Shown: one piece after another, positions 17,760 to 33,210 of the stretch
Layout of the letters: the number at the start of each line of letters is the position of its first letter
Position numbering within the stretch: the first letter of the stretch is position 1
Source of the DNA: Caulobacter sp. HMWF025
GTDB lineage: Bacteria > Pseudomonadota > Alphaproteobacteria > Caulobacterales > Caulobacteraceae
Length of the DNA stretch: 34,355 nucleotides
Reading direction: 5' to 3'
Assembly: GCF_003060965.1 (NCBI RefSeq)
Contig: NZ_QAII01000142.1
Span: 7,108-41,462, forward strand
The notes under the pieces: generated by a model
What the model was told of the DNA's origin: nothing
Seen by the model: the letters and a program-made list of their open reading frames with translations, nothing else
The model's database searches: none
Program-made: the position numbers and the translations under genes

Positions 17760-18533
17760 TTAGATGACCTGCCCCTTGACCGCCAGGCCCATCAACTGAC
17801 GCAGCCGTGGCTGCAAAGCCTGGCGCCTAGTGGCTAGAGCGATGAACTTGGCGTCGGCCCTAATACTGCCGCTGGCTCCCAGGCTGTCGTAGTGTGCCTC
17901 GAAGTCCTGGCATAGCGCTATGAACTCATCGATCGCCGACACCAGAACGTCCGGCACTGCTTTGCGGTCGAGCCAAGCAGTCAGGGAAAGGCCGGCTTTG
18001 GCCGCGCGGCCTTCCTCATAGGCACGCTGCGATTCCGTCATGGCGTCGATCTGGGCATGCAACCGCGCCTCTCGTGCCACGGGCTCATAGGTGCGATGGC
18101 GACGATTGCGCGGACGGCCTTCGAAGTTGAAGTCGGCCGGATAGTTGGGGTCCTCTACGAACAGGATCCTGCCCCAGGGCCAGGGCTTGGGAGTCATCTC
18201 GATCAACTCGCCCTCGGGGCTTTTCCAAACACAATGGAACTCTGCGGTCAGCAGGCCCGGCGGCCACTCGACCACGTTCCAACCGTGAACGGGCTCGCCG
18301 CCAGCCGTCGCCACCTTCAAGCGCACTCCCTCGTTACACCAACCATATCGGCCGAGCGGGTCGGCGGTGAGAGCCAGGTATTGTGGCATAACCGGACTCA
18401 AGCTCTGACAAAACGCCAAGATTGCTGGGGTGATTTCGGCAGGTGGTCCTTCGGGATTGGTCGGTAAGCCCTGACGATCGGCCGCCAGCTTTCGCGCCGC
18501 GTCGAGCCGAATTTCATCGTCGGTCATCTTCAT
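17760..18533 (-). CDS. Unrecognised companion protein of the zinc-ribbon/HEPN gene
   Basis: 257 residues. The central part (about 60-130) has a conserved-looking core: LGRYGWCNEGVRLKVATAGG, HGWNVVEWPPGLLTAEFHCV and WKSPEGELIEMTPKPWPWGR. A similar Cys-Asn ... GGxxxxGW ... EFHxVW ... DxTP pattern is familiar from hypothetical proteins sometimes associated with SEC-C zinc motifs, but no function is established. The C-terminal half is helical and charged. It starts 7 bases after the stop of the upstream HEPN-like gene, so the two are co-expressed. It may be the antitoxin-like, regulatory or sensor partner; this is inference. Confidence 0.65.
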   Translation of the reverse strand: MKMTDDEIRLDAARKLAADRQGLPTNPEGPPAEITPAILAFCQSLSPVMPQYLALTADPLGRYGWCNEGVRLKVATAGGEPVHGWNVVEWPPGLLTAEFHCVWKSPEGELIEMTPKPWPWGRILFVEDPNYPADFNFEGRPRNRRHRTYEPVAREARLHAQIDAMTESQRAYEEGRAAKAGLSLTAWLDRKAVPDVLVSAIDEFIALCQDFEAHYDSLGASGSIRADAKFIALATRRQALQPRLRQLMGLAVKGQVI

Positions 18534-18540
18534 AGGGCGC

Positions 18541-19548
18541 TCAAGGAGTGCAGCGAGCCAGGAGCGCGTTGCCTAGCCCTTCAACCAAGTTGGCAAACCG
18601 CAAGACAGCACTGTCTTTGATGACCAACCGCTGCCCCACCGCATAGCCCACATCGCCGCTGCGGCTCACGTAGTCACTGTCAACGATACCCTGTTGATGG
18701 GCTAAAAGGTGGCGCTGCTGATAGTAGACACGCAACTCCTTCATTGCGGCGACATCAAGAAGCTGCTCGTAGGAGCCGCCGAGCTCCGCTTGCCACAGTT
18801 CCGAACCAGCATCGAGATTTTGGAAGGCATTGCGGCGCGCGGCATTTCCCGTTCGTGCTTCGTAGAGCTGCTCAGCGAGGCGCTGGAACGAGGTCACGGT
18901 GTCCTGCATCGCCTTCTCGAGCAGCGCACGCGTCATGACCTCCGCTTCGTCGGGACCAAGCGCCGTGCGCAGGGTTTCACCGAGGCCGGCGGCGGTACGG
19001 ATGGTCGCAAGAGTTTGCAGGAACGTATGGCTCGCCGAATTCTTCCCGCAGCTGGGACAAAAGTAGGCCGCGCCCACATAGGAGTATCGACACGCGCAAT
19101 CCTCACAGGTGGTCCGAAGCCGCATCGGTTCCGCTGCTGCCACCGGCACAAGCACCGCGTCGCGCCCACCCTTGACGTCGAGCGTGATACTTAGAAATGC
19201 TCCCGGCTTCTGACGTCGCTTCGACGCTTGGGCGTCAGCGCGCATTGCACCGTTTAGACGATTGACTACCGTCCCGAGGGCGTACTGCTTTGCTGCTTCG
19301 ACCTGCGCGGTCGTGAACCAGGAGCGAGCCGGCGCAGTGTGTCGACACGAAGGGCAAAACACCTCTTCGTCACGCACGATGTCCTTCCAATCGTCACCGT
19401 GAATTTTGAACTGGAAAAGGCATGCCTCCGCCGGGCATTCCTTGTCAGCGTATCCCTCCGCATCCCCCTCGAGTGGCACTTCGACTTGTTGAAGTTCAGC
19501 GAGGCGGCGCAGTTCCTTCTGCAAGTTCTCGAACATAGTGGACCGCAT
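18541..19548 (-). CDS. Zinc-ribbon protein with C-terminal HEPN-like domain
   Basis: 335 residues. There are two zinc-ribbon-like clusters: C38/C43 with C65-PS-C68 in VFCPSCRHTAP, and C148-ED-C151 with C164-PS-C167 in AYFCPSCGK. The C-terminal helical region carries YYQQRHLLAHQQGIVD, in which R279-x4-H284 fits the RX4-6H catalytic motif of HEPN ribonucleases. HEPN proteins with zinc ribbons are usually RNA-cleaving toxins or defence effectors; the target here is unknown. It is the first gene of a two-gene minus-strand operon bracketed by 64-bp direct repeats. The start may be this ATG or the ATG four codons later, and neither has a clear ribosome site. Confidence 0.65.
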   Translation of the reverse strand: MRSTMFENLQKELRRLAELQQVEVPLEGDAEGYADKECPAEACLFQFKIHGDDWKDIVRDEEVFCPSCRHTAPARSWFTTAQVEAAKQYALGTVVNRLNGAMRADAQASKRRQKPGAFLSITLDVKGGRDAVLVPVAAAEPMRLRTTCEDCACRYSYVGAAYFCPSCGKNSASHTFLQTLATIRTAAGLGETLRTALGPDEAEVMTRALLEKAMQDTVTSFQRLAEQLYEARTGNAARRNAFQNLDAGSELWQAELGGSYEQLLDVAAMKELRVYYQQRHLLAHQQGIVDSDYVSRSGDVGYAVGQRLVIKDSAVLRFANLVEGLGNALLARCTP

Positions 19549-20779: not shown

Positions 20780-21085
20780 TTAGACGGCGATGGTGATGTC
20801 CGCCCCAGCTAGATTCGCAAGCTTCAGGAGCGGGGCCGGGCCGAGTTGAGGGCAATAAAGGCGGAGCCTCTGTCCAGGGCGGGCTGCACGAAGCAAATCC
20901 TCTATCGGGATTGGGCCAAGGTGCGAACAGTCGATGTCCAAGTTGGCGCCTGTCTCGACAAGCTGCTTAAGCGGTATAGGGCCGAGTGACATTATAGCCT
21001 CCTGATGGATTGGAGCTAAGCGGTCTGCGACAGCCACTAGCCCGTCCTTAAGGTCAAGCCTGACCGATGACTGCGCGACACGCAA
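20780..21085 (-). CDS. Small internal-repeat protein of the four-gene cluster
   Basis: 101 residues. Three imperfect repeats of about 25 residues begin with LGPIPLKQLVETGANLDIDC, LGPIPIEDLLRAARPGQRLR and LGPAPLLKLANLAGADITI. Each is built as LGP(I/A)P, a helix and a hydrophobic strand, giving a small alpha/beta solenoid-like fold. No known family was recognised. It starts 6 bp after the stop of the nuclease-like gene and is the last gene of the cluster. It may be an inhibitor or adaptor of the partner proteins (inference). Confidence 0.62.
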   Translation of the reverse strand: MRVAQSSVRLDLKDGLVAVADRLAPIHQEAIMSLGPIPLKQLVETGANLDIDCSHLGPIPIEDLLRAARPGQRLRLYCPQLGPAPLLKLANLAGADITIAV

Positions 21086-21091
21086 CGATGG

Positions 21092-21787
21092 CTATTCGCT
21101 GCCCCCCAAGGCCACGAAGTCGTCAGCGTCCGCGTGTCGAGCGATTTGAGACGTCATTTGCTCCCACGCTTCCGCAACGCGGTCCGCCAAACCGCTTGGG
21201 AAAGGCCGCCCACTGATCGACCAGAGCGACGAAAACGTGTTCAGGCTTTGGGATTTGCTAGCGGGAAATGCCAAAGGCGTTTCGATGACCATCGCTCCGT
21301 CGAGACCGGCCATTTGCCCACTGTGCTTCAAAGCATCGTTGACTAGCCAAGCTACCGTTTGATTGCCTAAGCGCTCGGGCGGACTGATGAGGACAATCAG
21401 ACCATATGCGTCGGGCATATCGAGAACGGTTCGGGTAGCCTCAACTTGCCTTCGGGCTTTCGTCACCTCTTTTCGGATGCGCGCGCCCACCACTCTAAGT
21501 GCCTGTTCCGCAACAGGCTTTGGGAGGTCGTGGAGCTTGACGTTCATGGTGCCAAACACAACAGGAGCACCAAAGCCAACGTTGCGTTCCATAACGGAAC
21601 CAAGTTTAGTCGCGACCTGCGGATCTCGCCGACGGTCGCTCGTGAATGACTTAACTTCGGCTATCAGGTTTTCCGAGATGAACACCACGTCCGCGCGTTC
21701 ACCGGAGTATCCGAGCGGAAGCAGTTGCTCGGCATGGTGACCACCAGCGGAGCAAAGGACATTTGTGATCAGCTCGTGTTGGTCCAT
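21092..21787 (-). CDS. PD-(D/E)XK-like nuclease-related protein
   Basis: 231 residues from the ATG at 21787; a TTG seven codons upstream (21808) is an alternative. The N-terminal part contains H17/H18-x-E20 and ADVVFISENLIAEVKSF with D33 and E44-V-K46, the pattern (D-x10-ExK) of a PD-(D/E)XK nuclease core. The middle part reads AYGLIVLISPPERLGNQTVA. The resemblance is in the active-site motif only, so it could also be an inactive relative. It lies between the large ATPase (108 bp gap) and the repeat protein (6 bp gap), all on the minus strand, and would be the likely effector of a defence system. Confidence 0.6.
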   Translation of the reverse strand: MDQHELITNVLCSAGGHHAEQLLPLGYSGERADVVFISENLIAEVKSFTSDRRRDPQVATKLGSVMERNVGFGAPVVFGTMNVKLHDLPKPVAEQALRVVGARIRKEVTKARRQVEATRTVLDMPDAYGLIVLISPPERLGNQTVAWLVNDALKHSGQMAGLDGAMVIETPLAFPASKSQSLNTFSSLWSISGRPFPSGLADRVAEAWEQMTSQIARHADADDFVALGGSE

Positions 21788-21895
21788 AAATCTATCTAGG
21801 CTGCGCAATGTTTCAGCTCAGGCACCACCCATTCGCAGAATGAATGGAGCGCCAATACTGTAGGATAGAAACGCCTACACGGTCCACCAGCTCGC

Positions 21896-24709
21896 TCAGA
21901 GCCCGGCATCGCTGCTTCTAAGTTGGCGAGCTTTATTCATCAAACCAATGATGCTCTTCCTACCGCCCGTCTTTCTGACAACATTTCCAAGACCAGTCCG
22001 GAATATTTCCGGCATTTCCACAGTGTTTCCCTCAATCAGAATGATTCCGTTATCTTCGAGCATTTTCATGCGTTCATCGTTGACTTCAGAAATCTTCTCT
22101 TTGAATTCAGATAAGCTCATTGGAACCGCAAATTGCGGGGCTTGCCGCAACGCATCCAGGACGGGTTTCAGTCCCGGGTTTTCCTCCCCCATCGACTCGA
22201 TTTTCTGACGCCCCACAGGCGCAATGGCGCTCGCCATCGCTCTGGGGACCAAAAGTCGGTCGAAGAAAACGGCATTGTCGTCCCCGGCGGAGGTTTCTGC
22301 ACTACTTGCGACGAAACCGACTAGGTCGCGAGCAGTCAAACGACCGCGCAAATCCGATAGTGCTGCAATCACCCACTCCGACGACCGCGCCTCCCGAGTA
22401 CGGCCTCCGCGAGCCAGATCGTCGGCCTTGCCAAGCTTTCTTCCCCAAAGCGGCACAAGCCGCTCTTCGATTGCTTGATTTTCCGCGTCTTGGAATTTCG
22501 GATCCCAGGTATTGGCCACACCAGCTTGCTGAGCCAGCCAAGCTGCAAGTTCCAAAATATCGCGATCAAACCACGTTAGCGCGAAAGCGCGATTTCGATC
22601 TGCAAACTGTCGATAATTATTAGGATATGCGGAAGCAACGAGGTCTGAACGCACAAAATTAACTTGCCCCAACGGCCTTCCAGGAAGCTCAAGAAGGCGC
22701 TGTGGAAGAGACGATGTAAGGCCGCGAATTGCTGCTTGTTGGTTTGCGTCGGCGCGGAATGACTGGAAACTTTCTTCCAAACCATCGAACAGCGCGACTA
22801 TTCGAACGGGAGCGTTCAGGAGGCGCTGGATTAGCTCCTCTCCCGCTTTGGGTGCTTCAAGCGCCACCCCGCTGCTCCACGCGATAACGTCGAGCCAGAA
22901 TGCGCCCCATTCACTCTCAGACGTAAGTTGCTTGGAGGCCTGATCAATGAGTTCGTTCAAGCGCGAAAAAGCTATAGGAGCCCCGCCCCCAACAGCGTTC
23001 GAGATTGTCTCACGCGACTGAGCGATGCTTGTGGAAGCTTGAATATTTCTGGCAGGCAGCACCGGAGCAATAAGCGCATCGCGCGATCCTGCACCCGCCG
23101 GATGAACTTTCAGCTTGTTCGTGAAGGTTCCCCATGTGCCCATCTGAGCAAGGACGCGGAACGTGAAAGTCTTCCCGGCCCCCTTCATTCCGATGCATGT
23201 GGCATTGGGCGACTCGGTCCTGAAGCGCTCTCCAAGCTCTCTCAGTGCCCGCACCGTGAGAAAGTCATCACTGACCTCCTGCCCCGACTCGGCAAAGACG
23301 CGATCCCTTGCAAATTCGTGCAGCCTTTGGCGCTTAGATTTTTGCGACGGCAGACTGACTGTCACTGGCGCTGAGACATCGATCTGAGGCAGCTCAACAG
23401 CGATGTGCGCTGCTCGAGCCTCCAGGTGGTCCTCGATCCAATCTGCAAGCCCGCTGGCAATCTGATCGAAACAACTTTGCCCACGGAGATCGTCTATGAA
23501 ATCCTTCAAACCACTAGGCGCGGCCGTTAACGCTGGCGCATGATCGAGCACTACGATCGGCGGGCCAGCTACATCCTCGGTACTCAGTTGAATAATGTCA
23601 CCAGCGGCAGCGCCATCGTTCGGATCGTCGATGAAATTGGATGCGCTTTCCTCAAGACTCGCAGCTACACGGGCGAACTCGGCGCTCCTCCGGACCTGGG
23701 GTATGACATTGTTGATTACGATCGCCGGACGCCCTCGCCAGCCGCCATTTGCCTGGGTCTCGCGCCCAATAAAGCTCAGCATTTCCCTCGTAGACATCAC
23801 CGCTTGACCGCTTGGTGTGGTGACAAAAACAGGCGCAACGCCTGGCGCGCAGAGCACCATAGCGGCCAAATCGGTGAACCCGGCGCGGAGATCGATGACC
23901 AGAGCGTTGCAACCTGCCGCGCGTGCAAGCTTCTGGAGAATATCCAAAAGGAAAAACGGCTTATCGGAGTGCGATTTCTGGAGCTGTTCCGGCCGGATTG
24001 CGAATGCCGAAAGCATATCCGCGCGGCGGAGGCATGGAAGGAACGTGATGCCCTCATGCGTCTGGTTGGCCAACTTTTCAGCGCCAAACGCGATTGCGCC
24101 ATCGGCGCTTGCATCGGGGTCCGCATGAGCAAGAACAATCAAATCCTCAAGCGAGAAATGGCACTCCCTACCATCGCTTAAGAAAAGATAGCTTATCCCC
24201 GGAGCTTCGAAATCCGCATCAACAAGCATAGGTTTGAGGTTGAATTTCTCCGCCAGAGATAATGTAAATGAAAGCGCGGATGTTGTCCGCCCCACACCTC
24301 CTTTTACAGAGTGAAAGGCGAAGCTTGGGAAATCTGTCTCTTGGATTTTCTCGGCACTCTCGACCCGCCTGAACCAGATTTGGGTGGAGGCGGCTACATA
24401 CTGCGACGCCAGCGCTAACGGCGGATCTCCGGCAATCTCACTATCATATTCCAATATTTCAATAGGAAGCGACGTTGAAAATTGAGGTCCATCAAGAACA
24501 ATAGAATTATCTTTGTATCTCAGCGGAAACAAAGATGAAACCCAATCTTTAATTTCGCTATAATAACTAATAGATTCAGCATATAGAGATATTTGATCCC
24601 AATACACTTCAGCTTTAACTAGAGATGACGGAAATTCGCCTCGCGACCTCGCCACGTTCAACGTGTCGGCGATGTCACCCCAGCTATACGGAAAACTTTT
24701 CGTGTCCAT
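21896..24709 (-). CDS. Large protein with a MinD/ParA-like P-loop domain and a second P-loop NTPase domain
   Basis: 937 residues. The N-terminal helical region is at about 1-120. A deviant Walker A of the MinD/ParA type, FHSVKGGVGRTTSALSF (K136-GGVGRTT), is followed by MLVDADFEAPGISYLF (switch region) and ALVIDLRAGFTDLA (Walker B-like, about 269-282). A second P-loop lies at G507-MKGAGKT514 with Walker B IVALFDGLEE (637-646), resembling STAND/Sll1717-type P-loop ATPases. The C-terminal 300 residues are helical. Such sensor-ATPases with an N-terminal ParA-like domain are typical of defence or conflict systems. It starts 9 bp after the upstream 143-residue gene and is relatively AT-rich at its 5' end, a sign of transfer. 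The precise function is unknown. Confidence 0.8.
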   Translation of the reverse strand: MDTKSFPYSWGDIADTLNVARSRGEFPSSLVKAEVYWDQISLYAESISYYSEIKDWVSSLFPLRYKDNSIVLDGPQFSTSLPIEILEYDSEIAGDPPLALASQYVAASTQIWFRRVESAEKIQETDFPSFAFHSVKGGVGRTTSALSFTLSLAEKFNLKPMLVDADFEAPGISYLFLSDGRECHFSLEDLIVLAHADPDASADGAIAFGAEKLANQTHEGITFLPCLRRADMLSAFAIRPEQLQKSHSDKPFFLLDILQKLARAAGCNALVIDLRAGFTDLAAMVLCAPGVAPVFVTTPSGQAVMSTREMLSFIGRETQANGGWRGRPAIVINNVIPQVRRSAEFARVAASLEESASNFIDDPNDGAAAGDIIQLSTEDVAGPPIVVLDHAPALTAAPSGLKDFIDDLRGQSCFDQIASGLADWIEDHLEARAAHIAVELPQIDVSAPVTVSLPSQKSKRQRLHEFARDRVFAESGQEVSDDFLTVRALRELGERFRTESPNATCIGMKGAGKTFTFRVLAQMGTWGTFTNKLKVHPAGAGSRDALIAPVLPARNIQASTSIAQSRETISNAVGGGAPIAFSRLNELIDQASKQLTSESEWGAFWLDVIAWSSGVALEAPKAGEELIQRLLNAPVRIVALFDGLEESFQSFRADANQQAAIRGLTSSLPQRLLELPGRPLGQVNFVRSDLVASAYPNNYRQFADRNRAFALTWFDRDILELAAWLAQQAGVANTWDPKFQDAENQAIEERLVPLWGRKLGKADDLARGGRTREARSSEWVIAALSDLRGRLTARDLVGFVASSAETSAGDDNAVFFDRLLVPRAMASAIAPVGRQKIESMGEENPGLKPVLDALRQAPQFAVPMSLSEFKEKISEVNDERMKMLEDNGIILIEGNTVEMPEIFRTGLGNVVRKTGGRKSIIGLMNKARQLRSSDAGL

Positions 24710-24718
24710 GTACAGTAC

Positions 24719-25150
24719 CTAGGCGAAGAGGCGGCCTTTGAGAGCCGATGTTAGCTTATCGAAAAATTGAAGCGCTTTTGCTTCATCGTCACCTTGAAGA
24801 TCGACGCTATATCGCATGGCTACATGGAACTCGGAGAGGGAGATGGTGTTCGACTCGCCGCTTTTGCGGATGTCGGGCACCGTAACAGGGCCATTTCCAG
24901 CTTGGGCGAGTTCAGATCGAGATATCTGGGCAACAGCGATCAAAGCCCTGATGTTATGACCGAACTCCCCGGCGACCGCGGCGGTGGTTTTCTGCCCTCG
25001 GTCCTTCATCACGAGGTGCTTAAGTCCGCATTCGGCGCTGTAAAATAGCAGCATGCCCTTTCCAGAATCGTGAGCCCCTTGGAGCGCTCCCGCCGCTTTG
25101 AGATTTTTGAGGCAGGCTTTGCGCATCTGCTGCAGGGACGCTTCCAACAA
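24719..25150 (-). CDS. Small helical partner of the large ATPase (HEPN-like fold possible)
   Basis: 143 residues, mostly alpha-helical. SGKGMLLFYSAECGLKHLVM (29-48) and FGHNIRALIAVAQ (63-75) recall the pattern of HEPN-like helical bundles (LLFYAVECGLK ... HDLxxL), but the catalytic RX4-6H is not seen, so it would be a non-catalytic version. It is the first gene of the cluster, and its stop lies 9 bp before the ATG of the 937-residue ATPase, so it is translationally coupled to it. It could be an adaptor or antitoxin. Confidence 0.7.
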   Translation of the reverse strand: MLEASLQQMRKACLKNLKAAGALQGAHDSGKGMLLFYSAECGLKHLVMKDRGQKTTAAVAGEFGHNIRALIAVAQISRSELAQAGNGPVTVPDIRKSGESNTISLSEFHVAMRYSVDLQGDDEAKALQFFDKLTSALKGRLFA

Positions 25151-25415: not shown

Positions 25416-25526
25416 AGAGCTTGTCGCCTAAGCTCAACAGGTTATCCGGGACCACCGGCCAAATAGCCGCCTATGCCGACAAAGCGGCAATCGACGAGCG
25501 GCCCGTGTTCGGCCAAGCTTCGGCAC

Positions 25527-26387
25527 ATGCCGTTACGCCTCAACAACCTGCTCCGCGACGAAGGAATCGATCCTGCCGACGTCCGCCTTTTGCGGCATCA
25601 GACGTCGAAGGTTCGCGGGCGCACGCCCTACACGCTCTGGCGCGATGACCCCGGCAGCTTCGAGACTTACCAGAGCACCCAGGTTAGTGCGCCGCGTGAG
25701 CGCTCCCGTTTCCGTGGGCGCTACTGGGCAAGCTTCGTGGTCCCGCCGAGCGGAGCCACCATGTTTGTCGGTCTCTACGCGGTCGCGCTCGCTGGCACCG
25801 TGCCATCCGGGACGATCGACCCTTTGACCGGCGTTAACGTCGGCGGCCCGAAGGGCCTCATCGCCCCTTATGACCATTACGAATGTACGCGGGTCCAGCA
25901 ACTCAGCGACTACATTGGCCGCCTCTTCATCCATTGGGGCGACACGGCCAGCGCAAGCCGCGCCTGGGTTCAGAGAGCTGATAATCAGGACAAGGCGATC
26001 GTCGAACTGACGCGAACTTTCCGCGAGGAGGAATTCCCCGGTTTCACAAAGCTCCTACGACCGCTTTCTGACATCGAGACCATGCCGCTGACATGGCAAG
26101 CAGTCTTGCGCGCTACGCGCGGTGTCTACTTGCTGGCCTGCCCCCGGACGCGAGAGCACTACGTTGGATCGGCGTATGGGGAGGACGGGTTTCTAGGTCG
26201 TTGGTTGACCTACGCAACGACCGGTCACGGCGGCAACATAGGTCTCAAGATGCGCGATCCGAGCGACTACTTCGTCAGCATTTTGGAAGTGGCGGGCTCG
26301 AATGCGACGGTCGATGAGATTCTCGGCCTTGAGGCCGTTTGGAAGCTAAAGCTTCACAGCCGCGACATCGGCCTCAACTTCAACTGA
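25527..26387 (+). CDS. GIY-YIG nuclease-domain protein
   Basis: 286 residues from the ATG at 25527; an in-frame ATG 18 codons upstream (25473) is less likely. The N-terminal domain (about 1-180) has LLRHQTSKVRGRTPYTLWRD and DDPGSFETYQSTQ, a conserved stretch seen in alphaproteobacterial GIY-YIG proteins. The C-terminal GIY-YIG fold has G199-V-Y201 (GIY), Y212-V-G214 (YIG), R225, H234 in TTGHGGN and E269, which match the catalytic arginine and metal-binding glutamate positions. It should cleave one DNA strand. Members of this type occur alone in genomic islands and their role is unclear. Confidence 0.85.
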   Translation: MPLRLNNLLRDEGIDPADVRLLRHQTSKVRGRTPYTLWRDDPGSFETYQSTQVSAPRERSRFRGRYWASFVVPPSGATMFVGLYAVALAGTVPSGTIDPLTGVNVGGPKGLIAPYDHYECTRVQQLSDYIGRLFIHWGDTASASRAWVQRADNQDKAIVELTRTFREEEFPGFTKLLRPLSDIETMPLTWQAVLRATRGVYLLACPRTREHYVGSAYGEDGFLGRWLTYATTGHGGNIGLKMRDPSDYFVSILEVAGSNATVDEILGLEAVWKLKLHSRDIGLNFN

Positions 26388-27449: not shown

Positions 27450-30400
27450 TCAGGACCGTCGAAATCCATAGCGCAAGCCTTGGCCCAACAGGTCCAACAC
27501 CGCCTCGCCCTCCTCACTCATCGGATTGGGGATCATTTCGACCCTGGCGTGCGCCGGGGTGCTCAGATTGCTCACATATGCAATCCAGTACTGCACGCCG
27601 CTGCGCGCACGCGCCGCCGCCCTGCCCGCCCTGACTTCCGTCTCACCCATCTTGAAGGAGAGAGGGTCGTTGAGGCTCGCCTTGACCTCGATCTGCCACA
27701 CCTGGCGACCGACATTGATTGCAAAATCATAGCCCAGACCGTCATTGCCCGGGCGACTGGTGAATTGCTCGCCGATCTTCGATTTCCACGCCGCGTCGAT
27801 GTCCTGATCCGACGCCTTACGCATCAGCCAATGGCGGACGGCCAGTTCGCCCAGCCGGCCGATCATGTCCGTCTTCTGCGACGGGACGTCATTTGCACCA
27901 CCGCCCCCGCCGCCTCCGGACGCAGGTGCGTTCGAACCGCCTACCTTGCCCCGAGCCGGTGCCAAGCCCGCCTTGCGGCCCAAGGGCGTGGCGAAAAGCT
28001 TGGGCGACAAGCATTGAACGAGTTCGGCCTCCAGAGCCGCCCAATCGGCCCCTTCAGGATCTACCGGGCGGCCGTTGAACGGCACCGACCGAGCCGCTTT
28101 CCTGCGGGCCTCCGCCGCCAGATTGGCTTGAGCCTGCTCGGCGGCGATGTCCCTCTCGACAATCTTGTGCACAGTACGGTCCAAGGTCAGGTCCATGCTT
28201 GGAGGCCAGGCGCCAACCCTATCCGTCCAGGCCAGCAAGTCTTCGGAATTGAGCGTGCGCCAGTCAAAGGCCCCCGATTGATCCAGCAGCGCCCGCAGTC
28301 CCGCCAGCCCCCCGTCGGCCTCGCGCCAGATCTGATGGGGCGTCGCCCTGGTCTTGCTCCACGCCCGCACCAGTGGCCCCGCGCTCTCGACAAAGACCTT
28401 CAGAGCAGCGACGTTGGTGCGGCGAACCCGATCGAGGGCTTCAAGTCCGGGAGGATCCGAGCCGAGCGGTAGCGCGCCATGGGCCTGGAGCCACAGGTCG
28501 ATGTGAGCCCGGATCAGCGCGTCGGGGACTTCCTTGTATTTCAACAACCAGTCAGGATCGGGCGACAACGCGCGCGCGGCCTCGCGCGCCTGAGCGTATT
28601 GCGGTGCAAGGGAGCCCTCGCTCAACGTCGGCGCATAGGCCGCACGCAGCAGATCGGTGATTTCCAGATCATGGGCACCAGCGTAGCCGACGACGAGGCC
28701 GACGTGGAGTTCGGCGTAGGTGTCGGGCTTTTCGCCAACAGCGATCAGGGCAAGGTTCAGCGCTTCGAAATCCAATCCCAAGGCGTCGCGCAGCTCCGCG
28801 ATCGTCAGCGCCGTCTTGCAGGCTTCAAGCACCTGGTCGGCGTCCCGCTCCAAGGGTCCAAGCCAGGGCGAGATCGCCCGGCGCAGATCTGCGATGTCCT
28901 TAACGACCTCTGCCTCCCGCACCACGAACGTGTCCAAGGCCTCACTGCCGTCGGCCATGTAGAGCAGGGCTCGAAGCCAAGGCAGGTGACGCTCCAGTCC
29001 CGCGCCGAGCGTCTCCCGGACCGCACGTCTGGCCGATCGAGAAAGACGGAGCGTGCCGCACATGTCTTCCAGGTCCAGGTCTGTAAAGGCGGCCTCAGTC
29101 GGGGCCGCACCCGCTGAGCGTTGCCCGAGAAGCAAAATTCGAAGCACCGATTCCAGGACGGGCTGATCGATCGCTTCGCAGAGCGCGCCCAGTGCTTCGT
29201 CTAGCACCGACCAGTTCGCCGGTCCGGTGGTTCTGCAGACGACGATCGCGCGGCCGTCCGCAGTCTTGAGCGCAAATGCGCTTCGCCCGTCCACTTCTTG
29301 GTCAACATCCAGACCGTCGATCTTAAAGCCGATCGTCGCCGCGCCCTGGAACAGTAAGCGTTCGAGCCGGTCGATGATCGCATGCCGGTCGGCCGGCAAT
29401 CTTTGGGCCTCCGGTCCCTTGAGTGCTTCCATCGCCACCGCAACCATGCCCTTCAGCCGCGGCCATCGTACAACGATTGGGGCGACCTCCCCCTCGCCCA
29501 CATCCCGGCCGTCGACGCTCATCGCGTAGTTCACCTGCGACAAAAGCCGGACCTTTTCGCCGTAGAAAGCGCGCATCACGTTCCCGACCCCGACGTGGTC
29601 GGTCCGGGCGTCAAACAGCAATCGCCCCGCCGCTTCGAGCAAGCTAACGGCCGTTTCGTCGTCACCGTCGCGCACGTAGAAGGGCTCATCGCCCTGTGCG
29701 ATCAACGCCGGACGCACAACCTCGGTGTCGGCTCCCCTTCGCGCGAGCAGAATGTGAGGCGGGTGCGCCTGGGTCCCCAGCTGCCCGCGCCCGAAACGCT
29801 CGGCGATCTTGCGCCAGGTTGCAAAATAAAGATTAAGCAGCCGCCGTTCGAAGTAACGATCAAACCCCTCCTTGGCGTACTGCTCGGCCAAGAAGACGGC
29901 TTGGTCGACGAGGCCGTTCGGGTCATCGAAAATATGAAGTCCGCCGCGCGCCTGCAGGATCTGGATCTGATTAGGTCCTGCTCGCTCCAAAGCGCGCATT
30001 ACAGGAACGGCCGGACGACGAAGAAAGCTTGGGAACCGGTCGCCGGCCTCCGGCGCCATCCAGATATCGGACGGGCGCGCCAAAACCCGGCGTCCGCCGG
30101 AAACCGAAGGCTCGTCCGCTGGGACCCAGGCGGCGGACCTCAGGAAGGACTTCAGCGGCGTCGGCCAGGTCCGCGCGTCGTCGTGGATGAAATGATAATG
30201 ATGGACGTTCAGATCCCAATAGGTCGGCTGCGCCTCACCAAGCCAACCGATCACCAACTGGGCATAATACTCCAGGCATTCCCGACTAAATTCGGCGACG
30301 TCGCCCTGCCCCGGCATCCAGAGTATTTCTCCACGAATGAAGTATTCGCTTGTGGGGGTCATCGCCATGGCGTGAGCGTTTTCGGCGAGAATGTCGGCTT

Positions 30401-32918
30401 TCCATGCCTGCGCCGCTTGCAGCGAGATGCCGAGCGCATTGCAAAAGACCATGTCGCGCAAGCGCCAACCTTGGACCTTCGTCGCCACCTCTTGCTTTGT
30501 AGGTTGGAGCCCGCGCTTGACACCCAGCTGCGTCAGGAACGTCGTCCAAAGCTCCGTATTGCCACCTACCTTCAGCGAGTAGTGCGTCTTGGGTGCCAAC
30601 CGTCTCTTCCCAAGTGCGACGACATCGGCGCTCGTCGGGGGCGCTGCGTTCAAAAATCTCTGCAGCAGCCGACCACTCGTCTCCTCAGGCCAAGTCTCCG
30701 AAAATATCGCCTCGCCGGCTTCGATGAACTCTCCGTCCATCGTCGGCACCAAGAAGCGATGGGAGGGCTGCAGTTGGAAGCCCCGCCCCGTCTCCTGAGG
30801 CCGGCGCCAGATCTGGAACGCCCAACGCAGACCGGCCGCCCTGGGCGCGGCACGATGATCGGCGCGCACCACGCGCGAAAGCTGGGTCAGGATGGTCTCG
30901 CGGTCAAATTCGAGCACGAGCCCCTGTTTTTCGAGATATCCCCGCGCTTCCGAAAGCTCGCCATGCCACTCAAGGGCGTCCGACAGGAACGCAAAGTTAT
31001 CGGCCAGGCTCTGGGGCGGCGACAATTGCTCCGGGTCGGCTTTGTCGCCACCGCGCCGGGCCGGTGGCGAAAAGACGGCGACAGCGATAGGCGCGCGCCG
31101 CCGCCGCTTGGTGGCCGCCTGGATTTCGGGCGCCGCGGCCATGGCAGCCCGCAGCTTGCCGTCGGCGCACAGCAACACAGGTTTGCCGGCAAGGACATGG
31201 CCGGATTTGTCGAGCAACTCGACTAGATCCTTATAATAGGCTGACCATCGGGCTGTGGAAGGCAGTTTTGCGGCGGCGATGTCCTGGGCGACCTGAACGG
31301 CCAGCGTGCCCCGTTCCATTGCATTGGGCGCTTCCGAATAGCCGGCGACGTGCTTGGCCAGATAGGCGGTCAGAATGGGAGCACGAAATTCCAGTCCTGG
31401 CCAGATCGGAGAGGCTCCCGTTGTTTGCGCAAGGGCCGCGGCGGTTTGGACGCCGAATGTCCGGCTCTTGTTCGTCCATTGCCGAGCCGCGACCGCTCGC
31501 GCCCAGCCCACGCCTTCGACCTCATCGGCGAACGTCAGCACCGGAACGACGGGCGCCTGGCCCAGATTGACCGCGCCGAGGCGCGTGGCGATGCGGCGGC
31601 CTATTTCCGCCGGCAGGTCCTCCAGGGTTTGAAGGCTGTCGACCTTCCGCCAGCACATCAGGTCCACGACCATGCGCGCGCGTTCTTGCGGATCAATGTC
31701 GAGCTCAAAATCGGCGTCGGGACCGACCAGGCGGGCAACCGTATCGGCCGCAAGATGGGCCGCAGCCTTCAACAGCACCGCGTTGAGGTGAACCGACGCA
31801 TCCAAATTCTTGCGGTTGGAGCTTGGGAAGAAGCTTCCATGCAAATAGCCGGAAAACGGCGCTACGGCTTCTTCCCCCATCGGGAGAAAGGTGTAGAGGC
31901 GCGGCGTGGCCACCACGCCGTCCAGCCGTACGGCCAGGGCCACCTCCCCCTCGCCTTCCCACTTGAGCCAATGTTTGTGCAGTTGCTTCTTCTCAACGCC
32001 GTCCAGGACGCACGCCGTCATGGTCGCCTCGGCGATGCGCCTGCGCGAGATCATGTAGCGCCCGGCGGTTCCTAGGTCCGCAATAGACACCTCCCCGCTA
32101 TGCCGTTCATGTCGCTCAAGGCTCAGGGCCCGGCGTTCGACCCCATGTTCATCGATCAGGCGCACGGTCAGGCGCTCGAGCCTGGAGAGAAAAAGCAAGA
32201 CGGGCGCTTTTTGCGCCTGAAGTTCTGCGATCTCGCTCAAGACATCCTGCGCGGCGGCCTCGGAGCGGACCGGCAGCGCAATGACGGTCGCAAATCCTCG
32301 CTTTGCGAAGGCCCGCACCGCTTCAGGCTGTTCTTTCAACCAGATCGGGACGTGGAAGAGCGGAAGATCCTGTCGCGCCAGTTCACGATGGCGCTCGTTT
32401 CCGAGCAACGCTTGCAGGTCCTCGGCCTGCGCGAAGCGGAAGCAGAACCCTTCGAAACCATGCCCCCCGGCCCAATCGCCGGCTTGCGAATAGACGGCCG
32501 GGGAATCGCAGATGTGACCCACGCTGCGAAATCCAAGGCCCTTGTTGCCAATGGATTCGCCGGGGGGCTTGCTCGAGAGTCCCATGTTTCTCAGGGCGTC
32601 GACATTCTTCTCCGAAAAGGGTGCGCCGCGGTTGGCGACATAGAGAACCCCTCCAGTCCCGCACCGATCGAACAGGACTTCGATCTCACCGTCAGACCGG
32701 CCGTTGGGATGAACGTCGTTGGCGTTCTGGATCAGCTCGATCAGAAACCGGCCGTGGTAATCGGCGGCTATGGCTTCGCCCATGCTGGCCGCGCCGGCAT
32801 AAATGGGCGACAGATAGTCCCCGTGTTCGTCGATCGTGCCGACGAAGCTTTCGAGCGCGCGCTTTGTCGCCCTTTCGATATAGGCGGAATAGGTTCCCGC
32901 AGGATCGGTGTCGTACAT
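27450..32918 (-). CDS. Giant Hsp90-like (sacsin-type) ATPase with C-terminal DUF3883-type nuclease domain
   Basis: 1822 residues from the ATG at 32918; a TTG 16 codons upstream (32966) is the other option. The N-terminal GHKL domain shows the N box ELIQNAND (61-68), ANRGAPF (95-101) and SIGNKGLGFRSV (122-133), as in sacsin-like ATPases. A long, largely uncharacterised middle (about 300-1650) is followed by a glycine-rich linker (near SGGGGGGGAND). The C-terminal domain (about 1700-1822) has GRLGELAVRHWLM, GYDFAINVGRQVWQIEVKAS with D and ExK residues, i.e. a DUF3883/PD-(D/E)XK-like nuclease site. Proteins of this architecture are predicted phage-defence factors. It lies alone at the end of the island. 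Confidence 0.82.
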   Translation of the reverse strand: MYDTDPAGTYSAYIERATKRALESFVGTIDEHGDYLSPIYAGAASMGEAIAADYHGRFLIELIQNANDVHPNGRSDGEIEVLFDRCGTGGVLYVANRGAPFSEKNVDALRNMGLSSKPPGESIGNKGLGFRSVGHICDSPAVYSQAGDWAGGHGFEGFCFRFAQAEDLQALLGNERHRELARQDLPLFHVPIWLKEQPEAVRAFAKRGFATVIALPVRSEAAAQDVLSEIAELQAQKAPVLLFLSRLERLTVRLIDEHGVERRALSLERHERHSGEVSIADLGTAGRYMISRRRIAEATMTACVLDGVEKKQLHKHWLKWEGEGEVALAVRLDGVVATPRLYTFLPMGEEAVAPFSGYLHGSFFPSSNRKNLDASVHLNAVLLKAAAHLAADTVARLVGPDADFELDIDPQERARMVVDLMCWRKVDSLQTLEDLPAEIGRRIATRLGAVNLGQAPVVPVLTFADEVEGVGWARAVAARQWTNKSRTFGVQTAAALAQTTGASPIWPGLEFRAPILTAYLAKHVAGYSEAPNAMERGTLAVQVAQDIAAAKLPSTARWSAYYKDLVELLDKSGHVLAGKPVLLCADGKLRAAMAAAPEIQAATKRRRRAPIAVAVFSPPARRGGDKADPEQLSPPQSLADNFAFLSDALEWHGELSEARGYLEKQGLVLEFDRETILTQLSRVVRADHRAAPRAAGLRWAFQIWRRPQETGRGFQLQPSHRFLVPTMDGEFIEAGEAIFSETWPEETSGRLLQRFLNAAPPTSADVVALGKRRLAPKTHYSLKVGGNTELWTTFLTQLGVKRGLQPTKQEVATKVQGWRLRDMVFCNALGISLQAAQAWKADILAENAHAMAMTPTSEYFIRGEILWMPGQGDVAEFSRECLEYYAQLVIGWLGEAQPTYWDLNVHHYHFIHDDARTWPTPLKSFLRSAAWVPADEPSVSGGRRVLARPSDIWMAPEAGDRFPSFLRRPAVPVMRALERAGPNQIQILQARGGLHIFDDPNGLVDQAVFLAEQYAKEGFDRYFERRLLNLYFATWRKIAERFGRGQLGTQAHPPHILLARRGADTEVVRPALIAQGDEPFYVRDGDDETAVSLLEAAGRLLFDARTDHVGVGNVMRAFYGEKVRLLSQVNYAMSVDGRDVGEGEVAPIVVRWPRLKGMVAVAMEALKGPEAQRLPADRHAIIDRLERLLFQGAATIGFKIDGLDVDQEVDGRSAFALKTADGRAIVVCRTTGPANWSVLDEALGALCEAIDQPVLESVLRILLLGQRSAGAAPTEAAFTDLDLEDMCGTLRLSRSARRAVRETLGAGLERHLPWLRALLYMADGSEALDTFVVREAEVVKDIADLRRAISPWLGPLERDADQVLEACKTALTIAELRDALGLDFEALNLALIAVGEKPDTYAELHVGLVVGYAGAHDLEITDLLRAAYAPTLSEGSLAPQYAQAREAARALSPDPDWLLKYKEVPDALIRAHIDLWLQAHGALPLGSDPPGLEALDRVRRTNVAALKVFVESAGPLVRAWSKTRATPHQIWREADGGLAGLRALLDQSGAFDWRTLNSEDLLAWTDRVGAWPPSMDLTLDRTVHKIVERDIAAEQAQANLAAEARRKAARSVPFNGRPVDPEGADWAALEAELVQCLSPKLFATPLGRKAGLAPARGKVGGSNAPASGGGGGGGANDVPSQKTDMIGRLGELAVRHWLMRKASDQDIDAAWKSKIGEQFTSRPGNDGLGYDFAINVGRQVWQIEVKASLNDPLSFKMGETEVRAGRAAARARSGVQYWIAYVSNLSTPAHARVEMIPNPMSEEGEAVLDLLGQGLRYGFRRS

Positions 32919-33210
32919 CGCAGGCTTGTTCCGCCTCTCAACGACGCTACCGTCGACTTTCGTCAAGATAAGCCAATACGCACAGCCCAGACAATGTTTT
33001 CGAGCAGTCGACTTTCACGCTTTGGCACCCCGGCTGGATCTACTGAAGAATCCCTTTCAGCGGTCGCCCATTTCTCCGCCAACAACCGGACCGTTCCCAA
33101 GGTTGCCTAAGCGTTAGCTCCGGTCTATCGAGAGTGAGTGCCTACCACCGTCATAGAAGCGTAACTGTCCAGAGGCTTAGCCGACGGGGCTTCGACGGAC
33201 GCGTCATTCG

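Follow-up and report, generated by a model that had tools for sequence, protein, structure and literature searches.

The conserved unit at this locus of Caulobacter sp. HMWF025 consists of two genes, which encode a protein of 143 amino acids and a double ATPase of 937 amino acids. We think, at slightly better than even odds (a probability of about 0.55), that these genes form an anti-invader module of the abortive-infection or toxin-antitoxin-like kind, in which a HEPN-like RNase would be the effector and the double ATPase would control it. This reading starts from the homology of the parts, the predicted HEPN-like fold of the small protein, the conserved linkage of the two genes and their defence neighbourhood. 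The pair occurs in bacteria and archaea and sometimes lies inside known phage-defence loci. We therefore regard it as probably a little-studied phage-defence switch, with that function being putative.

An earlier note on this DNA had described a cluster of four genes as one unit, and had proposed an undescribed anti-invader system composed of a sensor ATPase, a small partner and a nuclease. In the following, the window means the whole stretch of 34,355 nucleotides that was analysed.

Organization of the locus and its surroundings

Four minus-strand open reading frames (ORFs) were found at positions 20780-25150, separated by gaps of 9, 108 and 6 bp. That is, the number, strand, lengths and spacing of the genes given in the earlier note were confirmed from the ORFs. 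The features of the locus and of its surroundings are as follows.

24719-25150, minus strand: HEPN-like protein, 143 amino acids, TTG start, putative effector
21896-24709, minus strand: double ATPase, 937 amino acids, ATG start
24281-24304, minus strand: deviant Walker A motif KGGVGRTT of the ATPase, residues 136-143, in which R141 replaces the P-loop lysine; occurs once
23168-23191, minus strand: second Walker A motif GMKGAGKT, residues 507-514; occurs once
22772-22789, minus strand: Walker-B-like motif FDGLEE, residues 641-646; occurs once
21905-22168, minus strand: putative C-terminal winged-helix-like region, about residues 848-935, read from the secondary structure of the model
21092-21787, minus strand: PD-(D/E)XK-like protein, 231 amino acids from an internal ATG, outside the conserved module
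20780-21085, minus strand: 101-amino-acid protein with three LGPxP repeats, outside the conserved module
25473-26387, plus strand: UzuA homologue (PADLOC, 1.5e-75), divergent to the HEPN-like gene
27450-32966, minus strand: TmtA homologue, 1838 amino acids (PADLOC, E=0), with Pfam sacsin and NOV_C matches
18541-19548, minus strand: match to PDC-M14A, 335 amino acids (PADLOC, 6e-12), with weak zinc-ribbon matches

The ORF at 21092-21787 extends to 238 amino acids when it is read from a TTG at 21808. The 143-, 231- and 101-residue proteins showed no Pfam or NCBIfam match at E <= 1. The region is AT-richer than its host, as had been claimed; between 20 and 25 kb, each of the five bins of 1 kb has a GC content of 0.50-0.60, versus 0.66-0.68 for the first five bins of the window.

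We take TmtA to be Tiamat, and UzuA is presumably the protein of the Uzume system. Since homologues of TmtA, UzuA and PDC-M14A are present in the window, the surroundings are defence-rich, and the defence-like neighbourhood suspected from the letters was borne out by PADLOC. A PADLOC scan of 19 ORFs of the window identified none of the genes pglX, pglZ and pglW. A gene for a 257-residue protein (17760-18533), which gave no matches, adjoins the PDC-M14A-like gene.

Two genes occur together in other genomes

Matches to the KGGVGR family above the cut-off were found in 38 of 398 genomes of the phylum, the window's own genome included. From the positive genomes we took 17 longer stretches, 12 of which carry a long relative of the ATPase (29-32% identity). 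A homologue of the 143-residue protein was present in 11 of these 12 (BLASTP, worst E 3e-4).

One genome per species was then scanned with a 13-sequence alignment of the ATPase, and the best 80 of 155 relatives were used as a set of loci; several of them, from Magnetococcales, are contigs already represented in the 12 stretches above. A three-round profile of the 143-residue family matched one ORF each in 73 of these best 80 of 155 loci, among 5915 ORFs, a count that is not fully independent, since related loci had served as seeds of the profile and its rounds were run on the same ORFs. More than 330 bp of upstream DNA is present in 78 loci (again within the best 80 of 155), and in 68 of them the small gene lay upstream of the ATPase ORF with the best score, on the same strand and no more than 300 bp away. 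The commonest spacing was a 4-base overlap (21 of the 68), as counted from ORF starts that were assigned mechanically. In five further loci (L064, L068, L077, L078 and L114) the small-gene match is upstream of a broken or more distant ATPase.

Seven of the 80 loci gave no match to the small-gene profile. Two of them, L083 and L120, have no upstream DNA, and in two more, L062 and L095, visual inspection revealed HEPN-like segments. In the remaining three, L061, L085 and L111, upstream DNA is present and no complete HEPN-like gene was seen in it.

No other gene family was found in more than 6 of the 80 loci when ORFs of at least 90 residues within 5 kb were compared (BLASTP, 1e-5). Homologues of the nuclease-like and the repeat protein were absent at E <= 1e-3 from the ORFs of the stretches L033-L048 and L051-L130, the best 80 of 155 ATPase loci included; the one stretch that matched was L050, the Blastomonas locus of a nuclease relative described below. 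The DNA downstream of the ATPase gene measures 700 bp or more in 71 of the 80 loci, and in 65 it measures 1500 bp or more. The closest relative of the pair, in Methylorubrum podarium (L051; 60% identity for the ATPase and 53% for the HEPN-like protein), stands alone without a nuclease or a repeat gene, and its contig runs 2.4 kb further downstream. A gene on the opposite strand, which we take to encode a KpsF-like isomerase, follows there.

Relatives of the ATPase were seen in genome contigs of many phyla and in one complete chromosome (Arthrospira). In the search at the level of the order, the ATPase was found at E <= 1e-10 only in the window's own genome among 299. Viral contigs gave no confirmed relative of the ATPase or of the nuclease, and a fused ATPase of Streptomyces, used as the query against plasmids, found none at E <= 1e-15.

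The nuclease-like and repeat proteins

We take D33 and E44-V-K46 of the 231-residue protein to be its PD-(D/E)XK motif. Its best relative (52%) is encoded on plasmid pBSY18_4 of Blastomonas sp. RAC04 (L050, 1761-2480), where a DUF4238 gene follows it and where the 14.5 kb examined contained no ATPase or HEPN-like gene. The same plasmid also carries a reverse transcriptase gene and an ABC-three-component gene. Distant relatives of the nuclease (23-26%) were found in 2 of 288 other genomes of the class, both of one genus, and no ATPase or HEPN-like gene was present within the 16 kb examined for each. Only the window's own genome was found with the nuclease at the order level (E <= 1e-5, of 299) and at the phylum level (of 398). 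Searches of phages gave no relative, and the PHROG collection gave a weak match to phrog_20483, a family of unknown function (0.0013). Several of the nuclease queries lacked the first Met.

The 101-residue repeat protein had no plasmid relative, and none of the collections that we searched yielded a convincing one; with a 71-residue query, a single genome among 288 others of the class gave marginal matches, namely two fragments with E values of 0.003 and 0.005.

These results bear on the explanation that all four genes form one lineage-specific defence operon, in which the ATPase would be the sensor, the HEPN-like and PD-(D/E)XK proteins would be the effectors, and the repeat protein would be an adaptor. 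The four genes do share a strand and are separated by the short gaps given above, no promoter-like or terminator-like site was listed in the 108-bp gap, and the third-position GC is alike across the four genes (0.54-0.63). Against this, homologues of the nuclease and the repeat protein were found in 0 of the best 80 of 155 ATPase loci, M. podarium included, and neither an ATPase gene nor a HEPN-like one accompanies the nuclease relatives within the DNA examined. We consider such an operon quite improbable. As a conserved unit it was rejected on co-occurrence across the 80 loci, and on the same count the nuclease was ruled out as the effector in the sense of a conserved part. Thus, the claim of one four-gene unit did not stand, for only the HEPN-like and ATPase genes co-occur elsewhere, and of the proposed anti-invader system the sensor ATPase and small partner are supported and the nuclease is not. 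The nuclease gene may possibly be co-transcribed with the pair in the window. We regard the nuclease and the repeat protein as probable passengers, which the island carries independently of the pair, and the effector is probably the HEPN-like protein and not the PD-(D/E)XK-like one.

The double ATPase

The 937-residue protein is composed, in order, of an N-terminal domain, a MinD/ParA-like KGGVGRT domain, a second P-loop ATPase (Sll1717/AAA_16-like) and a C-terminal end. The C-terminus may be winged-helix-like, judging from the helix-helix-hairpin order of the model only. The two Walker A motifs and the Walker B motif that had been read from the letters were each found once. R141 of the first Walker A motif was kept in 71 of 71 aligned ATPases (window included), and all but one of these 71 also have K513 in the second; in FDGLEE, the D, G and E are invariant across the 13-sequence alignment.

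The protein matched NF047398 (AAA_KGGVGR) over its curated cut-off (123.8 bits versus 90, E 1e-35), and its second half matched NF047389 (ATPase_Sll1717) under its curated cut-off (35.8 bits versus 75, E 4.9e-9). The AlphaFold (AF2) model of the protein had a pLDDT of 85.2. When this model was compared by Foldseek, 38 structures matched at E <= 0.001, with FlhG (MinD-like), HypB, MinD and ParA among the matches and 3.4e-5 as the best E value. Rank 35 (E 7.8e-4) was taken by 9zll, the entry of a BREX complex with pieces of BrxC, BrxB and PglZ.

Two side observations were made on this family. Three loci, L039, L044 and L048, carry a separate HEPN-linked lineage of fused ATPases of about 880 residues, which we refer to as the sister family; the ATPases of L048 and L044 have RGGVGRS where KGGVGRT is found elsewhere. 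In addition, the stretches L003-L022 contain many more KGGVGR proteins, with several above the cut-off in one genome (for example four in G350) and several in the form of ORFs of about 450 residues, which suggests that the family is large and little described.

Relationship to the candidate PDC-M28

The PADLOC model PDC-M28B matched residues 121-418 of the window ATPase (1.6e-16). PDC-M28A showed no match at E <= 1 to the window's HEPN-like protein, and PDC-M28C showed none at E <= 1 to the window ATPase or to its second half. Among relatives, PDC-M28A matched the sister-family partners of L044 (2.8e-4) and L048 (0.011), PDC-M28C matched the 60% relative in M. podarium (2.2e-4), and all five fused relatives tested matched PDC-M28B in the N-terminal half and PDC-M28C in the C-terminal half.

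The distant plasmid matches of the window ATPase, found in three records, are separate genes and not fused ones. This split form consists of a small gene, a KGGVGR ATPase of 438-448 residues and a second ATPase of 473-492 residues. The three genes of Enterobacter asburiae and those of Thiodictyon strongly matched PDC-M28A, B and C; in E. bugandensis, PDC-M28A and C were scanned and both matched. The Thiodictyon B protein, used as a query, found 14 plasmid records, of which 11 were viewed. The small gene was directly upstream of B in 11 of the 11, and a C-sized gene was directly downstream of B in 10 of them, the Gemmobacter locus being cut by the end of the record. When the split locus of Enterobacter was compared with E. 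coli genomes at the DNA level, no match was obtained.

A tree of the KGGVGR domain separated 70 fused from 10 split rows across one branch (100/100), with long-branch warnings, and the window protein paired with that of M. podarium. Five of the 85 rows (L072, L141, L048, L039 and L044) were left out because the motif pattern missed them; the P-loops of L072 and L141 read KGGMGRT and KGGAGRT.

PDC-M28 resembles the window locus in its parts and in their order, which are a small HEPN-like gene, a KGGVGR MinD-like ATPase and a second P-loop ATPase, and it differs in that B and C are separate there and are one protein in the window. Membership of the window locus in PDC-M28 was rejected; the window's A and C parts miss the PDC-M28 models, and we therefore treat the locus as a relative that is fused and divergent. 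PDC-M28 itself is a computational candidate in PADLOC-DB. The module is a real and widely distributed fused variant of this candidate, for which we found no tested function. Our literature search found no paper naming the PDC-M28, KGGVGR or Sll1717 families, and among titles and abstract openings none described a pair of HEPN protein and double ATPase, which does not imply absence from print.

Defence context and BREX type 2

Genes of BREX type 2 flank the split form in 3 of the 11 plasmid records viewed, namely those of Thiodictyon, Sphaerotilus and Streptomyces NBC_01334. In these three loci (L133, L134 and L135), genes of the PDC-M28 A-B-C type lie between the BREX-2 genes; the PDC-M28 models were scanned for L133 only.

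For the fused form, the 80 loci were searched by tblastn at 1e-5 with 11 queries, seven from a BREX-2 locus and four from the window (TmtA, UzuA, PDC-M14A and the product of 17760-18533). In L087 (Micromonospora), pglX and pglW were found downstream of the fused pair on the opposite strand, and in L122 pglW was directly upstream of the pair. In 78 of the best 80 of 155 loci no query matched, and therefore the defence context is shown for a minority. The module is linked to BREX type 2 by the flanking genes of the split form and by pgl genes adjoining the fused form in 2 of the best 80 of 155 loci, and it differs from that system in that it also occurs without such genes.

It can be asked whether the genes serve the maintenance or partition of plasmids or chromosomes, as a ParA system would, rather than defence. 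The MinD/ParA-like fold and the plasmid location of the split forms speak for this; the replacement of the P-loop lysine by R in 71 of 71 ATPases, the fusion to a second ATPase, the regular HEPN-like partner, the lack of another gene family in more than 6 of the best 80 of 155 loci in the BLASTP comparison of ORFs, the spread over genome contigs of many phyla with one complete chromosome (Arthrospira), and the copies within BREX-2 loci speak against it. We consider a partition function highly improbable.

The small HEPN-like protein

The protein that had been described as a small helical partner was modelled by AF2 with a pLDDT of 93.3 and a pTM of 0.88. The first four of 77 Foldseek matches were HEPN-type structures, 1wol, 1ufb, 3o10 and 2hsb, with probabilities of 0.97, 0.98, 0.66 and 0.41; HEPN-type structures matched at E >= 0.13 with TM values of 0.43-0.59, and none was significant. 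The fourth, 2hsb, is AF0298 (E 1.5). HEPN is in the title of 1wol, 3o10, 2hsb and 1o3u (rank 9), and we take 1ufb (TT1696) to be a HEPN protein as well. The description of the helical partner may be narrowed to a HEPN-like one, on the model, these ranks and the sister family.

PF05168 (HEPN) did not match the window protein, and of the 61 partners only 2 gave a match to it at E <= 0.1. In the sister family, the partner in L048 passed PF05168 (24.2 bits versus a cut-off of 22), and those in L039 and L044 were narrowly under it (21.2 and 19.7 bits). When a profile of the HEPN-like family was run against the sequences of the PDB, seven marginal matches were obtained, and none of them was a HEPN protein. 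Depositors have labelled the gene at the same position HEPN in the Skermanella and Calothrix plasmids, 2 of the 11 records viewed. The assignment of the window protein as HEPN-like rests on the predicted fold, the sister families and the residue signature.

In the 61-sequence alignment of HEPN-like partners, Y37, E40, C41, K44, H65, R113 and Y114 are invariant (numbers count the first Met, which alignments A1 and A4 omit, so that their positions are one lower). E40, K44, R113 and Y114 were kept in 75 of 75 partners, that is, 61 of the fused type, 11 of the split type and 3 of the sister family. H65, which sits between model helices 57-63 and 67-73, was kept in 61 of 61 fused-type and 3 of 3 sister partners; in the split type its column is H in 2 of 11, and the remaining ones show an H a residue or more away. 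The usual Rx4-6H motif is absent from the window protein, in which R113 is followed by YSVDLQGD without H. The pattern of the AbiV/AF0298-type proteins, R113 together with H65 in the loop between helices 2 and 3, is present, each residue in 61 of 61 fused-type partners.

Because Rx4-6H is absent, the HEPN-like protein may be non-catalytic, as HEPN domains without the motif may be according to the part of Anantharaman 2013 used here (PMC3710099). This leads to the main rival of our reading, in which the pair is the same defence pair, the HEPN-like protein would serve as an adaptor that binds RNA or protein without catalysis, and the double ATPase would be the effector, acting by DNA binding or remodelling and possibly aiding BREX-like restriction. 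The winged-helix-like tail that we read in the ATPase, the 9zll BREX entry at Foldseek rank 35 and the BREX-2 insertions are in line with an adaptor. The proposed alternative RNase residues, in contrast, are kept as described above, and 78 of the best 80 of 155 fused loci lack a tested BREX gene in the DNA examined. We judge the adaptor to be rather unlikely.

Proposed action of the module

The catalysis by the HEPN-like protein, its inhibition by the ATPase, the trigger and the target are what we infer in the following scheme of an ATPase-controlled RNase. The HEPN-like protein would be the effector, most likely an RNase, whose site would not be the usual Rx4-6H but an alternative HEPN site, formed by E40, H65, R113 and Y114 and of the kind described for AbiV and AF0298-type proteins. 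The MinD/ParA-like KGGVGRT domain may function as a nucleotide-dependent switch that silences the HEPN protein. Sensor and trigger may both be the AAA/STAND-like ATPase that is fused to this domain and carries the winged-helix-like tail. Invasion would change the state of the ATPase and free the HEPN protein, and the freed protein would cut cellular or phage RNA, so that growth and phage production stop.

The proposal of an RNase held by an ATPase follows from two precedents, as given in the parts of the two sources used here: the HEPN (MAE_18760)-ParA/Soj dyad, a predicted toxin-antitoxin system (Anantharaman 2013, PMC3710099), and the HEPN proteins that a 2026 survey of BREX counts among the backup effectors of BREX loci (PMC12839542). 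We speculate further, and only tentatively, that the module is a widespread and separately mobile immune switch of HEPN protein and double ATPase, which serves as a BREX-2 fail-safe in some lineages, in which two stacked nucleotide switches, the first with arginine for the P-loop lysine, gate a non-canonical HEPN RNase, and which exists in three-gene and compact two-gene forms.

By these results a vague four-gene cluster is reduced to two genes that form a defined unit, for which there are a likely effector, numerous homologues to test and a link to BREX-2. If the proposal is true, a HEPN module gated by a dual ATPase is added to the biology of abortive infection, and the catalogued candidate PDC-M28 becomes directly testable, including whether HEPN proteins without Rx4-6H are RNases.

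Comparison with known systems

We found no named system with a tested function that the window module matches. The earlier view of an undescribed system therefore holds with respect to named, tested systems, but not with respect to PADLOC-DB, which has the homologous candidate PDC-M28. The co-occurrence of all four genes, whose lack the earlier note had named as refuting its reading, fails for the nuclease and the repeat protein (0 in the best 80 of 155 loci) and holds for the HEPN-like protein and the ATPase.

Pfam presumably includes a HEPN model for MAE_18760, and this family was absent from our Pfam scans of 12 and 61 partners. In the part of the article consulted (PMC3710099), the MAE_18760 dyad resembles the window module in that a HEPN gene adjoins a SIMIBI ATPase of the ParA/Soj type. 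MAE_18760 is described there as retaining Rx4-6H, whereas the window protein is without it and the window ATPase is fused to a second ATPase.

For AbiV and the AF0298-type HEPN proteins, the same part of that article describes a conserved R and, in the stretch that joins helices 2 and 3, an alternative H, and an alternative active site is suggested for them; it mentions no dual-ATPase partner for these proteins, in which they differ from the window module (PMC3710099). The window protein resembles them in keeping the R, in missing the histidine of Rx4-6H, and in having an alternative H from the insert between helices 2 and 3.
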